In this document: positions 32,941 to 36,646 of the stretch, in pieces
Layout: each line of letters begins with the position of its first letter
How positions within the stretch are numbered: the stretch's first letter is position 1
Virus record (IMG/VR): IMGVR_UViG_3300020459_000002
Span: 1 to 37,081 of that record
Reading direction: 5' to 3' (one strand)
DNA from: a virus
Length of the DNA stretch: 37,081 nucleotides
Program-made: the position numbers and the translations under genes
The notes under the pieces: model-generated
Told to the model about the DNA's origin: nothing
The model's input: the letters and a program-made list of their open reading frames with translations, nothing else
Databases searched by the model: none

Positions 32941-33001
32941 AAAATATTTAAGAGCTTTTTTTAAGAATAATGTTTGAGGAGGAGAAGTAACGCAAATACG
33001 A

Positions 33002-33037
33002 AGCCGAGTTTTGGGGTACCACCCCTAAACTACGGCT
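33002..33037. repeat. Long stem-loop at the end of the small terminase gene
   Basis: AGCCGAGTTTTGGGGT (33,002-33,017) pairs with ACCCCTAAACTACGGCT (33,021-33,037): about 15 pairs with one bulge and one mismatch, loop ACC. The arms overlap the terS stop. There is no T tract on either side, so it is not a classic terminator. It could be a packaging or regulatory signal. Apart from this hairpin and the upstream promoter the gap 32,916-33,035 holds nothing I recognise. Confidence 0.6.
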
Positions 33038-33407
33038 ACGACAAATCAATAGATATTTTGATGTCACCATCAAGAAGATGCTGTGTCCTTTCTGGCGGTT
33101 TGAAACCAGCTCTATCTAATATATCCTTAGATGCTTCAAGCTGCACATACTCTGACTTAGCTCCACCAGAAAGGTTAACCATCTTCTGCATTGCCTTTGC
33201 AGATGCGATACCGATGTGTTCAGCAGTTCCTTTCATAAGAGCTTGTTGAATATGTGGGAGTTTCAATAACTTACTGGCTTGCACACTTGCGTTCTTGTCT
33301 GAGTAACCAGCATCGATACAAGCTCTCTTACCATTTCCTCCGTTGGTTAAATAGTTATCCACGAATTGCATCTGCAAGTCTGTTAAATTAGTGACATCAT
33401 TAGCCAT
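33036..33407 (-). CDS. terS: Terminase small subunit, 123 aa
   Basis: The N-terminal pattern LTDLQMQFVDNYLTNGGNGK, then RACIDAGYSDKNASVQASKL, then LKLPHIQQAL is the HTH DNA-binding region of the Terminase_2 small-subunit family. The C-terminus has ASKDILDRAGFKPPERTQHL, also usual in this family. It binds the phage packaging site and hands DNA to the large subunit. GAGGT sits seven bases before ATG 33,407. A near-consensus promoter about 30-60 bases upstream probably drives the late operon. Confidence 0.9.
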   Translation of the reverse strand: MANDVTNLTDLQMQFVDNYLTNGGNGKRACIDAGYSDKNASVQASKLLKLPHIQQALMKGTAEHIGIASAKAMQKMVNLSGGAKSEYVQLEASKDILDRAGFKPPERTQHLLDGDIKISIDLS

Positions 33408-33438
33408 GTATCATACCTCACGGTTAGTTGCTCTGCCG

Positions 33439-33468
33439 ATTATACAGTTATGATTCGTTTCCTGTCAA
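33439..33468 (-). promoter_or_regulatory. Near-consensus sigma70 promoter for the late operon
   Basis: On the minus strand TTGACA (33,468-33,463) is separated by 18 bases from TATAAT (33,444-33,439), both perfect consensus hexamers. It would start transcription about 25 bases before terS. This is the strongest promoter I see in the window and implies use of host RNA polymerase. Confidence 0.82.
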
Positions 33469-33508
33469 GACTGTTATCCACATGGCTAATAATATATCTG
33501 TGATTTGT

Positions 33509-33604
33509 TTAAAGCATGAGCATTTTCTTTTTGTAGTTCCTTCGATGGGTTATTTTTAAGAACCAATAGTGAACGATATAGCGTATTTTTAGTAATATGC
33601 TCAT
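33509..33604 (-). CDS. Basic membrane-type microprotein, 31 aa
   Basis: The start at 33,604 overlaps the preceding GAGTAA...ATGA context, and a short GGAG lies upstream. The product begins MSILLKIRYIVHYWFLKITH and ends in basic residues (RRNYKKKML). Its first 14 residues resemble a shortened version of the neighbour at 33,608 (MNILLEILGIYIHATGYIVH), and both begin in copies of the same 30-base repeat, so it is probably a decayed or diverged duplicate. Confidence 0.48.
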   Translation of the reverse strand: MSILLKIRYIVHYWFLKITHRRNYKKKMLML

Positions 33605-33736
33605 GATTTACTCCATTGGTATGTCGAACCATTTAGCTAGTGCATAAGCTGGTAATAAGACAAAGTGTACGATATAGCCTGTAGCATGGATATATATACC
33701 TAGTATTTCTAGTAATATGTTCATGATTTACTCCAT
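33587..33736. repeat. Pair of 30-base direct repeats around the membrane microproteins
   Basis: 33,587-33,616 and 33,707-33,736 match at 28 of 30 positions and share AGTAATATG and TCATGATTTACTCCAT. Both hold the end of one small ORF and the start of the next. They mark a 120-base tandem duplication. A nearby GATATAGC is also present in both units. Confidence 0.8.
33608..33724 (-). CDS. Membrane microprotein, 38 aa
   Basis: The ATG overlaps the upstream stop as ATGA, with GGAG about nine bases before it. The chain, MNILLEILGIYIHATGYIVH then FVLLPAYALAKWFDIPME, is mostly hydrophobic and could form a hairpin or a single span in the inner membrane. It lies in a run of three small minus-strand ORFs between the divergent leader and the late promoter. 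Function unknown. Confidence 0.55.
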   Translation of the reverse strand: MNILLEILGIYIHATGYIVHFVLLPAYALAKWFDIPME

Positions 33737-33843
33737 GCTTTGTCTGATATTATCAGCTTTTGTTCATAGTATTCTTCTGTTGTTAAGTGTCCTTCAGCAT
33801 GTAGTATGCCTAGTACTCTTAATTGTTGTATTAATTCTTCCAT
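33721..33843 (-). CDS. Small hypothetical protein at the divergent leader, 40 aa
   Basis: The start ATG 33,843 has AAGGGAG eight bases upstream (minus strand), all inside the left arm of the giant inverted repeat. The product is a polar two-helix peptide, MEELIQQLRVLGILHAEGHL then TTEEYYEQKLIISDKAWSKS, reminiscent of short SHOCT-like (LxxLxxxGxITxEEYExxK) modules that form tails or adaptors. The resemblance is to pattern only. It is coupled to the next small ORF by ATGA. Confidence 0.6.
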   Translation of the reverse strand: MEELIQQLRVLGILHAEGHLTTEEYYEQKLIISDKAWSKS

Positions 33844-34000
33844 AAGTAATCTCCCTTAATAATATATCTGGTCAACTATATGGCTACGAATGACAATATG
33901 TTTGGGTGCGGGCAGTTCGGCTTGCCGAACAACACGGCGTATTGTCATGATGTAATCGCCATATAGTAGGATATATTAATAATAAGGGAGATACTTATGG
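33840..34000. repeat. Giant inverted repeat carrying mirrored ribosome sites and start codons
   Basis: Six perfectly paired blocks fold the 161 bases into one hairpin: 33,840-33,848/33,992-34,000 (CCATAAGTA), 33,850-33,858/33,983-33,991 (TCTCCCTTA), 33,861-33,868/33,970-33,977 (AATATATC), 33,875-33,884/33,958-33,967 (ACTATATGGC), 33,890-33,898/33,940-33,948 (ATGACAATA) and 33,915-33,920/33,925-33,930 with a CTTG tetraloop. That gives 51 pairs. Each arm ends in AAGGGAGA followed by an ATG, pointing outward. It separates the two transcription directions. It may be a divergent control region, a replication origin, or the 5' part of a large RNA. Confidence 0.85.
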
Positions 34001-34050
34001 GAGTAATGAGCAACATAAGAGTCGCTAGACAGCGACTATTCAAGCGGTAA
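33997..34050 (+). CDS. Possible leader peptide, 17 aa
   Basis: ATG 33,997 follows AAGGGAG at 33,984-33,990 and lies in the right arm of the giant inverted repeat. The ORF MGVMSNIRVARQRLFKR is very basic and its codons form the 7-bp hairpin at 34,020-34,037. It may be a leader peptide whose translation controls folding of the structured RNA that follows, or a chance ORF. Confidence 0.35.
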   Translation: MGVMSNIRVARQRLFKR

Positions 34051-34380
34051 GCTTTATCGACAGAGAGCTGTTGAATCTTAAAGTGAATTTCAGACTCATA
34101 AGAAAACACTCTGGATTACAAAGATGTAATCCTAGGTTTTCTAATTACTTAGAAGTCACAGCTATACATAAGGATTGCAAGTGCAATCCTAGTATAGCTA
34201 TAAGATTCAATAGCTATTGCGACGATTACATCTGGGTGTGCATGCATAATGCACAATATTCCCAGATGTTATATCATTTCTATTTTAGATGTTAGCGAAA
34301 TGATATACGCTTGTTATACTCATCAGCTGTAAGTACCTTTTCACTTAGTAGTCGACGACTAAGAAGTCGTCGGCAGAGCG
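34020..34380 (+). ncRNA. Large structured RNA, 5' domain
   Basis: Apart from the 17-residue leader at its start there is no convincing gene, but perfect stems follow one another: 34,020-34,026/34,031-34,037; 34,066-34,080/34,201-34,215 (15 bp, one G-U), which closes a multi-branched loop holding 34,113-34,120/34,125-34,132, 34,139-34,144/34,149-34,154 and 34,160-34,167/34,192-34,199 with 34,171-34,178/34,183-34,190 nested in it; then 34,228-34,236/34,261-34,269 with 34,237-34,243/34,249-34,255 inside; 34,270-34,280/34,297-34,307 (11 bp); and 34,353-34,360/34,365-34,372. Loops such as AAGA (twice) and AAGT favour the plus strand as the RNA. It is reminiscent of large ornate phage RNAs such as GOLLD or ROOL, but I cannot assign it to either. 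Confidence 0.72.
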
Positions 34381-34383
34381 GAA

Positions 34384-34737
34384 GATTTTTAGTTAATGAA
34401 TTGGACACGCAAGCTAAGATACTATCCTACTATTTTATATTGTATTAGCCAGCATATAAATTGTCCTCCTTATAAAACACTGCGGAAATGTTACGGTTAT
34501 GTCCAATTTAAACCGAGATTCGTTGGGGGAAAGCGTATGGTTTGCTTTGCAAACCAAGCATTCCCACCAAACAAGCCGAAGGAAATCGACAGAAGTGTGT
34601 CGATTTGTTTGGTCACCATCGTATCACGGTTAAATGGAAACATAACCTACAATTCCGTAGGTTTTATAAGGAGGCCAAAATGGCTAATACAATTAAAATA
34701 GTGGACACTATCTTGTCCAATTCATTAACTAAAAATC
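34384..34737 (+). promoter_or_regulatory. Giant foldback that sequesters the ribosome site and start codon of the 209-aa ORF
   Basis: The left strand 34,384-34,478 is a near-complete inverted copy of 34,661-34,737. Paired blocks: 34,384-34,407/34,714-34,737 (24 bp, perfect), 34,416-34,421/34,709-34,714, 34,425-34,427/34,703-34,705, 34,429-34,437/34,694-34,702, 34,439-34,451/34,681-34,693 (13 bp) and 34,465-34,478/34,661-34,674 (14 bp). The last covers the Shine-Dalgarno AAGGAGG; the 13-bp block covers the start codon. Smaller stems inside lie at 34,538-34,545/34,549-34,556, 34,566-34,573/34,606-34,613 and 34,584-34,590/34,599-34,605. The stem 34,644-34,650/34,657-34,663 competes with the 14-bp block, so a switch is possible. 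Confidence 0.82.
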
Positions 34738-35309
34738 ATCCTTGGAATAAAGGTATTAAAGCTGGTGAGTATACAGATGAAACAACTGGTGAAGTACGAA
34801 AGTACTTCAACAGTACATCATATCAAGTTGTGAAACAACTTGCTGAATCACACAGATTGATTGTGAGAATACTCAATCGTGCCATAGCACAAAAGCACAA
34901 GGCTTTAGAAACTAAGTTAGCACCTTACACTAAAGGTGGTAAGGTTGATAAATCTATACCAATGCCTGAACATGTTAAGGTTACATTTCAGGAATTCAAA
35001 GGACTTAAAGAGTTACTTGAATATGTTAATGGATTTATCACAGAGCTGGACACAGCTCTTGAGTTCTTCGGTGGTTTCAAAGACTTTGCTCACTACGATG
35101 TAGTTGCTGAGAATTTAGACGAGCGTCTAACTAAGAAAGTTACACGAAGAACTAACACTTCTGCTTTGAAAGAAAGCAGACCATCTCAGAGCTTGGCTCA
35201 AGAGATGGATGACATCCTTGAAGAAAGCAAAGCTTTCATGCAAGGTGAATCGGATGTTAATCCGATTAATCAATCCAATGACGATGGCGAAGCGCCATCA
35301 ATTCATTAA
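34680..35309 (+). CDS. Hypothetical protein with hairpin-dense coding sequence, 209 aa
   Basis: I choose ATG 34,680, five bases after AAGGAGG, over an upstream in-frame start (34,542) in the structured leader. The protein has no known domain: a mixed N-terminus (MANTIKIVDTILSNSLTKNH), a helical middle (QVVKQLAESHRLIVRILNRA), a segment rich in Leu and Phe, and a disordered acidic tail. The mRNA itself is remarkable: perfect stems at 34,790-34,797/34,802-34,809 (GAAA loop), 34,824-34,831/34,835-34,842, 35,042-35,048/35,053-35,059, 35,115-35,120/35,125-35,130, 35,160-35,167/35,173-35,180, 35,181-35,187/35,202-35,208, 35,223-35,228/35,232-35,237, 35,248-35,255/35,260-35,267 and 35,283-35,289/35,293-35,299. 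Genes elsewhere in the window do not show this. It may bind its own RNA; that is speculation. Confidence 0.7.
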   Translation: MANTIKIVDTILSNSLTKNHPWNKGIKAGEYTDETTGEVRKYFNSTSYQVVKQLAESHRLIVRILNRAIAQKHKALETKLAPYTKGGKVDKSIPMPEHVKVTFQEFKGLKELLEYVNGFITELDTALEFFGGFKDFAHYDVVAENLDERLTKKVTRRTNTSALKESRPSQSLAQEMDDILEESKAFMQGESDVNPINQSNDDGEAPSIH

Positions 35310-35320
35310 GGATTGATTCA

Positions 35321-35352
35321 AAGCCAGTCGGCTAACACCGACTGGCTTTTTT
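35321..35352 (+). terminator. Rho-independent terminator of the structured locus
   Basis: AAGCCAGTCGG (35,321-35,331) pairs perfectly with CCGACTGGCTT (35,338-35,348), loop CTAACA, followed by TTTTTT. It ends the transcript carrying the structured leader and the 209-residue ORF. A 9-bp helix just before it (35,268-35,276/35,310-35,318) encloses the stop codon. Confidence 0.93.
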
Positions 35353-35356
35353 AATA

Positions 35357-35418
35357 CTCATATCTGGGGGAACTTGACCACTAGGTCAGACAGAACGCTT
35401 CGAGCTACCCAGTATGAG
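35357..35418 (+). ncRNA. Small structured RNA or leader between two terminators
   Basis: The ends pair: 35,357-35,368 (CTCATATCTGGG) with 35,408-35,418 (CCCAGTATGAG), 11 pairs with one bulge. Inside is a hairpin TGACC/GGTCA (35,375-35,379/35,384-35,388, loop ACTA) and a short GCTTCGAGC stem. No gene is visible. Together with the terminator at 35,425 it could be a small RNA of about 125 bases or an attenuator for the ardC operon. Confidence 0.55.
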
Positions 35419-35424
35419 GATAAT

Positions 35425-35481
35425 GTGAGTAGAAGAAAACCCAATCTCCCCATTGTATATCTTCTACTCACAAATTTTTTT
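35425..35481 (+). terminator. Terminator/attenuator directly before the ardC operon
   Basis: GTGAGTAGAAG (35,425-35,435) pairs perfectly with CTTCTACTCAC (35,461-35,471), loop of 25 bases, then AAA and seven T (35,475-35,481). The next ribosome site AAGGAG follows directly, so this terminator would decide whether the downstream genes are transcribed. Confidence 0.75.
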
Positions 35482-35493
35482 AAGGAGAAACTA

Positions 35494-35682
35494 ATGGCAA
35501 TAGAAATATTTGATGTATCAATAACTCTATCAAGAGATAATTCAAATGATGATGATGAAACATGGGTTGATGAACAACACATCGCTAATGAAATCAAGTC
35601 ATGGCTTGAAGATATAGACTATGGAGTAATGGCAATCGGAGTAAATAATATTAAAATTAATTACGGAGAAACTAATGAGTAA
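35494..35682 (+). CDS. Small acidic protein upstream of ArdC-like gene, 62 aa
   Basis: I choose ATG 35,494, six bases after AAGGAG, instead of an in-frame start at 35,374 that lies in the structured RNA. The chain (IFDVSITLSRDNSNDDDETW, then NEIKSWLEDIDYGVMAIGVN, then NIKINYGETNE) is acidic, with an alternating beta-alpha-beta feel. No family is recognised. It overlaps the next gene by eight bases (ATGAGTAA), so the two are co-translated; an acidic partner or DNA mimic beside an antirestriction gene is conceivable but unproven. Confidence 0.65.
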   Translation: MAIEIFDVSITLSRDNSNDDDETWVDEQHIANEIKSWLEDIDYGVMAIGVNNIKINYGETNE

Positions 35683-36646
35683 AACAAGTAAAGTGTATGA
35701 GTTTAACACAGAAAAATTTAACTCTAAGTTTTTATCTATAATAAAAGATGCTGGTAATGAGGAGGGTAAGTGGCAAAGAACATGGCAGCTTACCTTTGAA
35801 GATCAATACAAAGCATCTGGTTTAGATATAGAATTAAAAGATAATAAACTTAATAGATACAAAGGAGTTAACAATATGTTAATGAGTATGGTATCTGAAA
35901 TGAATGGATATAAATCTAAATTCTGGTCCACATATAAAGGGTGGATTGGTATGGGTTATGCACCTAAAGATGCAAGTAACTGTGGAATTATAAGACCTAT
36001 CTTTGGAGTGAACAAAAAAACTGGTAAAGAATATATAGTCAAATGGATAACAGTACCCGGATTTAATGGCGACCAAGTTCAACCAGTACATAAAGCTATA
36101 CCAAAGTGGAATGATCATGACTATGCTATCTTTAATGATGAACCTAAAGCTAATGCTGTTGATATGAATAAAGATTGCGAAGAACTAATATCTAAGTTTA
36201 TGAAGAAACAGAAAGCTAAACTTAAACATCAAGGTAGCCATGCATACTACCAATTAAGTACTGATACTATTGTAATGCCAGATGAATGGAAGTTCTTTGG
36301 TATTGATGGTGAATCAGATGCTACTCAAGAATATCTATCTGTTATATTCCATGAGGCTGGTCATCTTACAGGCCACCCATCAAGACTGAATAGAGATATG
36401 GATTCATACCACAAATGCAAAGAGAGTAGAGCTAAAGAAGAATTAATAGCTGAGATGTGTAGTATAATGGTATGCACGGAGTTAAATGTGATTGCTAAAG
36501 CACAACCTAATCATCTTAAATACATATCATCATGGGATAGAGCTATTAAAGATGACAGCCAGTATCTTATTAAGTGTATTGCTCAAGCGAGTAAAGCAGC
36601 AACTTGGATATTGGATAACAAAAAACCTAAAGTTGTTGTGAATTAA
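35675..36646 (+). CDS. ArdC-like antirestriction protein with zinc metallopeptidase domain, 323 aa
   Basis: The N-terminal region (KWQRTWQ...RYKGVNNMLMSMVS...KFWSTYKGWIGMGY) resembles the ArdC single-strand DNA-binding domain. The C-terminal domain has a zincin motif, HEAGH at residues 226-230 within FHEAGHLTGHPSRLNRD, and a third ligand candidate in KEELIAEM (E256-E260). Plasmid ArdC proteins protect incoming single-stranded DNA from host restriction; in phages the family is found among early genes. Here it is likely made soon after infection from the plus strand. GGAG lies before ATG 35,675 in the end of the previous gene. Confidence 0.85.
   Translation: MSKTSKVYEFNTEKFNSKFLSIIKDAGNEEGKWQRTWQLTFEDQYKASGLDIELKDNKLNRYKGVNNMLMSMVSEMNGYKSKFWSTYKGWIGMGYAPKDASNCGIIRPIFGVNKKTGKEYIVKWITVPGFNGDQVQPVHKAIPKWNDHDYAIFNDEPKANAVDMNKDCEELISKFMKKQKAKLKHQGSHAYYQLSTDTIVMPDEWKFFGIDGESDATQEYLSVIFHEAGHLTGHPSRLNRDMDSYHKCKESRAKEELIAEMCSIMVCTELNVIAKAQPNHLKYISSWDRAIKDDSQYLIKCIAQASKAATWILDNKKPKVVVN

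Follow-up and report, generated by a model that had tools for sequence, protein, structure and literature searches.

SD-burying 5' leaders, whether translational operators or of the riboswitch type, lie just upstream of a gene, carry a conserved apical domain and pair the SD and start codon of that gene in a long helix. Frpo/ssi elements, the ssDNA promoters found in leading regions of plasmids, are long imperfect hairpins upstream of early anti-defence genes. The put RNA of phage HK022, which modifies host RNA polymerase in processive antitermination, is about 70 nt long and consists of two stem-loops. The GOLLD, ROOL, OLE and HEARO RNAs are large and elaborately folded, GOLLD and ROOL being phage-borne. 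GOLLD and ROOL are often found near tRNA islands and have distinct folds (PMC12286853), and put RNAs lie downstream of early promoters (PMC9378689). Antitermination is used by phages and by conjugative-type elements alike (PMC8955417), and dsDNA viruses normally have less structure near starts (PMC3072339). Frpo (PMC11541004) and put (PMC9378689) may serve as functional analogues of the locus described here; they are not demonstrated relatives.

This locus belongs to a virus record of 37,081 nucleotides, analysed at full length and called the window (W), whose end joins its start (the junction is spanned in a relative, L005). The minus strand encodes terminase, portal, capsid and tail proteins, and the plus strand ArdC, a RecE-like exonuclease, SSB and a DnaA-C-domain protein. 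Among the isolates found, pelagiphage EXVC031P Hodr is the closest (capsid 65%, terminase 68%). On one side of the locus is the divergent terminase operon, on the other are the early genes. Homologues were gathered by searches with the 209-aa protein encoded in the locus, ArdC and the small terminase; close ones are few, with four in the W group.

Folding of the locus and its parts

The original prediction was of a hyper-structured 1.6-kb locus, and the interval does fold far beyond chance by z-score, minimum free energy (MFE) and perfect hairpins. Against dinucleotide-shuffled controls, the adjoining pieces 33830-34010, 33990-34760 and 34742-35500 have z-scores of -9.0, -18.5 and -18.1, the middle one reaching -18.8 on the minus strand. 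Across the whole window, 300-nt windows average -1.0 (sd 2.0); those from 33751 to 35550 range from -3.7 to -11.5, by far the most structured stretch. A second structured window, 33001-33300 (z -6.9), is mostly inside the small terminase coding sequence. The MFE of 33837-35481 is -664 kcal/mol with 71% paired, against -249 to -434 kcal/mol in sixteen equal control stretches of the same genome. The earlier count by eye, above 25 stems of 6-24 bp, holds (48 uninterrupted helices of at least 6 bp, the longest 24 bp) but is weak alone, since the controls give 25-41; what stands out is folding energy and long or perfect helices. Eleven of the 17 perfect hairpins of the whole window (stem at least 8, loop 3-10) fall inside the locus, which is 4.5% of the window. 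Plus-strand loops are purine-rich, as had been noticed (62% against a background of 53%).

The helices have further properties. G-U pairs are few in the locus folds (5-7% against 13% elsewhere), with little difference between the strands. In an unbiased count, mismatches in helices are G-T in 23 cases and A-C in 15. The scarcity of G-U pairs, the near strand symmetry and this mismatch count leave room for selection or a mutational process acting on the DNA. Whole hairpins are gained or lost between relatives, also between close ones.

The locus is modular: a leader on the minus strand, then a block of hairpins, a second leader on the plus strand, an ORF and a pair of terminators. Its parts and neighbours are as follows.

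33439-33468, minus: sigma-70 promoter of the terminase operon, perfect 12/12 (TTGACA-18-TATAAT); left border of the control region
33721-33843, minus: small ORF led by element A (MEELIQQLRVLGILHAEGHLTTEEYYEQKLIISDKAWSKS), with similar sequences in most of 12 relatives
33837-34003, minus: element A, a giant imperfect inverted repeat
33905-33937, minus: class-I motif CCGTGTTG-[TTCGGCaaGCCGAA]-CTGCCCGCACC, permuted form 2, at the apex of element A
34010-34379, plus (probable direction): block of perfect hairpins between the two leaders, with hairpins inserted or lost between relatives
34380-34741, plus: element B, a long leader helix burying the SD and start of the 209-aa gene (accessibility 0.17, control median 0.44)
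34380-34407/34714-34741, 34434-34451/34681-34698 and 34461-34478/34661-34678, plus: three nested long helices of element B
34513-34627, plus: apical three-way-junction core of element B, conserved in L004, L005, L009 and L016-L019
34680-35309, plus: first early gene, encoding a 209-aa helical protein; SD AAGGAGG at 34668; hairpin-built coding sequence
35320-35355, plus: intrinsic terminator T1, 12-bp stem
35356-35423, plus: small three-way-junction-like element between the terminators, nearly invariant
35424-35481, plus: terminator-like hairpin T2 (13-bp stem, 23-nt loop, T7), abutting the SD of the next gene
35494-36646, plus: downstream early genes, a 62-aa ORF and an ArdC anti-restriction protein (PF18818, E 9.5e-32; PF08401, E 5e-7)

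The promoter at 33439-33468 sits upstream of the small terminase gene and is conserved in the W group and in the relatives L016, L017 and L025; beside it is a perfect DnaA box (33474-33482). The map agrees with the prediction that the locus is terminator-bounded and joined to a coding sequence, both 3' terminators being present (35320-35349 and 35424-35472) and the structure running through the gene at 34680-35309. This is a real gene, and the interval, about 660 bases of which had seemed to hold no convincing gene, is not mostly gene-free.

Two proposed leaders and a folded first gene

We read the interval, at about even confidence, as a divergent early control region of a Hodr-related podovirus in which two cis-acting leaders would close start sites and time early expression. 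Element A would lead the small ORF on the minus strand and element B the first early gene on the plus strand. Both are predicted to form a long helix in which the SD and start codon, carried by the 3' arm, pair with the 5' arm, and the folded leader would hold the start site closed. Predicted start accessibility is 0.11-0.18 for both leaders in the window and close relatives and for the first gene of Hodr, compared with a median of 0.44 for 29 other starts of the window; in two further motif-bearing leaders (L354 and L221) the start is not closed (0.45-0.47). SD and start codon are paired in the predicted ensemble, and the pairing is conserved in relatives and accompanied by compensatory change. 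Unlike known SD-burying leaders, these are two divergent leaders in one region, with a structured coding sequence and no fitting Rfam family. No strong promoter was found for either leader, neither element containing a good -35/-10.

The minus strand gives the best reading of element A, that of a leader in which the ribosome-binding site of the small ORF is buried. In all 12 relatives a 40-100-aa ORF has its SD and start codon in the 3' arm of the element, and the predicted accessibility of the start region is 0.11; taken alone, the element has the better fold on the plus strand. The giant inverted repeat, originally placed in one plus-read RNA, is itself real, but these leftmost 170 nt fit best with the small gene of the other strand. 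The arms vary together: changes on both sides occur in 41 cells, where shuffles give 15.6 and slid controls 0-6. The apex, CCGTGTTG-hairpin-CTGCCCGCACC, is invariant in nine aligned relatives. Covariation, proposed as a check on the locus, is found in one part of it, element A.

For element B, L005 and L009 have a three-base compensatory change (34397-34399/34724-34726) in the outer, SD-burying helix, and the apical core is conserved in a second lineage. The core resembles IMES-1 (RF02034) in GGGnGAAAGC...CCACCAA, the alignment being full-length but weak: the model scores 19.9 bits (about 19.5 in L005 and L009), below the gathering cut-off of 81, whereas genuine copies score 180-200 bits and occur in SAR86-type genomes. 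A stricter pattern found 22 stretches in viral contigs, none of the 18 scanned records scoring as IMES-1 at E 0.1. Because this pattern yielded none and true IMES-1 is in SAR86-type genomes, the sub-threshold match is kept as a resemblance only. A blastn match of the IMES-1 consensus in phage PaBG is inside a CDS and is taken as chance. IMES-1 itself, named for marine environmental sequences, is present in 38 GTDB genome contigs (L406-L443), mainly ones with the label SAR86 cluster or marine Gammaproteobacteria, and some loci have two copies; the four genomes checked gave the scores of 180-200 bits.

The protein of the first early gene has homologues with 84-98% identity in L004, L005 and L009 and about 40% in L030 and L031. 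It matches no Pfam or PHROG family; its AlphaFold model has a pLDDT of 75, and a fold search returned no structural match at E 0.001 or better. Selection for folding acts on the coding sequence itself. Its z-score is -8.7 relative to shuffles in which protein and codon usage are unchanged, and z lies between -5 and -12 in seven of eight tested relatives of the protein cluster (L005 -10.5, L009 -8.3, L017 -11.9, L016 -9.2, L030 -7.0, L031 -6.2 and L025 -5.1), the exception being L029 at -2.0. Most other genes tested give +0.4 to -5, with two first genes of another lineage as exceptions (L077 -5.6, L090 -7.8). The 209-aa ORF contains seven perfect local hairpins where 0.45 are expected; over the ORFs of W, L005, L009, L016 and L017 the counts are 7-9 against 0.5-1.1. 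Since substitutions between close relatives do not preferentially keep the pairs of W, this evidence is statistical and not one of covariation.

Several roles can be proposed for these parts. The apical domains (the class-I motif in A, the three-way junction in B) are probably sites of binding or of folding timing, and an event there may open or close the message at the right moment. Folding of the coding sequence probably keeps the message compact, RNase-resistant and shut, and the tandem terminators, to judge from their sequence, would insulate the first gene from the ArdC operon. The unit ends in T1 and T2 in W, L004, L005, L009 and L016-L018, and 35384-35414 is kept even where the first gene is another one or only distantly related (L013, L014, L031).

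The first-gene slot looks like a site of module exchange. Lineages with an unrelated first gene (L012, L013, L014) are without most of the structured locus. Between the small terminase and ArdC, L012, L013 and L021 have an unrelated gene of 326-331 aa in this slot, with most of the hyper-structure absent. Upstream of the small terminase in L034-L102 are small, probably helical first-gene proteins, 34 of them joined by BLAST into a family; the members tested have no clear PHROG family, and a structured leader typically precedes the gene. Homology of this larger family to the 209-aa family was considered and rejected, profile comparison giving a probability near zero; only position and leader architecture are taken to be common to the two.

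The class-I motif in phages and mobile elements

The class-I motif, CUGCCCGCACC / CCGUGUUG, is circularly permuted and invariant at the apex of element A. The other order, CTGCCCGC[A/T]CC-hairpin-CCGTGTTG, is found at the top of the Hodr leader, ahead of the first early gene, and of at least five further phage leaders. The sense of the motif is that of the following gene in every convincing case: 12 of 12 element A relatives, Hodr and the at least five phage leaders.

Four of 398 sampled Pseudomonadota genomes have the motif with flanking stems, and a reversed-pattern control found none. One of the four chromosomal loci lies downstream of a gene of the ArdC type, and in two the motif is followed by a related small gene; the gene content of the loci suggests leading regions of conjugative elements. 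A Rhizobium plasmid has the motif ahead of a small gene and a DNA methyltransferase operon. Some candidates were set aside. The first broad scans of viral contigs gave mostly chance matches among those listed, and a stricter pattern was used instead; Perm2 matches in bacterial genomes (L448-L450) are without convincing flanking stems and are treated as chance, and a plasmid relative with a fuzzy motif only (L452) is not counted.

Competing readings and biological meaning

Cis-acting leader RNA comes first among the readings, followed by antitermination and then by a role at the level of DNA. On the RNA side are buried SDs of the right sense and place, the orientation of the motif, the purine-rich plus-strand loops and the terminators, whereas the few G-U pairs and near strand symmetry speak for a DNA-level or mutational origin.

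Processive antitermination, in which the leader RNA and/or the small first protein would modify host RNA polymerase for read-through of T1 and T2 into the ArdC operon, is a plausible but unlikely account. The leader stands at the start of the early operon, and T1 and T2 separate the first gene from the early genes that follow. In the window the interval from 35309 to 35494, ahead of the ArdC operon, has no promoter-like site, and none precedes the gene after T1/T2 in L005, L009 and L016-L018 either. The class-I motif is found ahead of early genes in both phages and conjugative-type elements. The likeness to HK022 is one of geometry, a structured RNA near the start of a terminator-containing early phage operon, but put RNA is far smaller (about 70 nt, two stem-loops) than this locus with its SD-burying arms. 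Moreover, Hodr has a promoter-like sequence after its first gene, and a leader with terminators would, alone, leave the SD burial and the structured ORF unexplained.

Somewhat less likely again is that ssDNA hairpins or cruciforms act as an ssDNA promoter, priming site or replication signal, as in plasmid Frpo/ssi. The helices are G-U-poor and nearly strand-symmetric, the perfect hairpins have small loops, and the phage carries SSB, a RecE-like exonuclease, ArdC and a DnaA-C-domain protein. As with Frpo/ssi, a long imperfect hairpin lies upstream of early anti-defence genes, and further copies of the motif lie in mobile-element-like DNA, one of them beside ArdC, and ahead of the Rhizobium methyltransferase operon. 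However, the F-plasmid stretch upstream of ssb is without the class-I motif, which counts against identity with F Frpo. Tailed phages inject dsDNA, and this phage has no known ssDNA entry stage. An N4-type hairpin promoter is rejected, as no N4-type virion RNA polymerase was found among the large proteins, each of which is a tail-fibre or internal virion protein or matches nothing. A GC-skew switch near 33 kb would suit a DNA-level role, but GC skew tracks gene direction. A replication origin marked by DnaA boxes is rejected, the boxes not being above chance (two against 3.3 expected). The SDs in the leader arms, right in sense and place, also count against a DNA-level role.

It is improbable that the palindromes are a functionless by-product of template switching in a fast-evolving region. 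Whole hairpins do appear and vanish between close relatives, the helices are nearly all Watson-Crick, and ORF substitutions do not favour pairing; yet the hairpins are concentrated at this locus and recur in independent lineages with different sequences, and the helices of element A are kept through changes on both sides across divergent sequences while its apex stays invariant.

Least probable is a stand-alone large ornate ncRNA of the GOLLD/ROOL kind overlapping a gene by chance, which would suit the size, multi-branched fold and 3' terminator but not the conserved gene filling 38% of the interval or the lack of a conserved global fold across relatives. The suggested new class of single large phage RNA is not supported: the parts are modular, no Rfam family reaches its cut-off in the whole window, GOLLD, ROOL, OLE and HEARO are absent from matches up to E 5 in 33400-35700, and the 37-kb window has no tRNA, let alone an array.

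Within the preferred reading, that of start-closing leaders, the gene for the 209-aa protein would be an unusual coding sequence for a dsDNA phage, under strong codon-level selection to fold and with its start buried, in contrast to the open starts usual in dsDNA viruses (PMC3072339). More tentatively, and with the balance somewhat against it, the class-I motif (CUGCCCGC[ACC] / CCGUGUUG internal loop, capping a variable hairpin in either circular permutation) may be a previously undescribed regulatory nucleic-acid element that plasmids and integrative elements have in common with phages. Acting, for instance, as a promoter that senses entry or as a novel antitermination RNA, it would govern the genes expressed first on entry, which often serve anti-defence; the phages of this clade would combine it with an early gene under selection for folding of its whole mRNA. 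If so, pelagiphage-related tailed phages and conjugative-type elements would control their first genes by the same structural element, the motif, about 20 conserved bases in a hairpin context, would be a handle for finding its binding partner, and early anti-defence expression in such elements would become searchable and testable.
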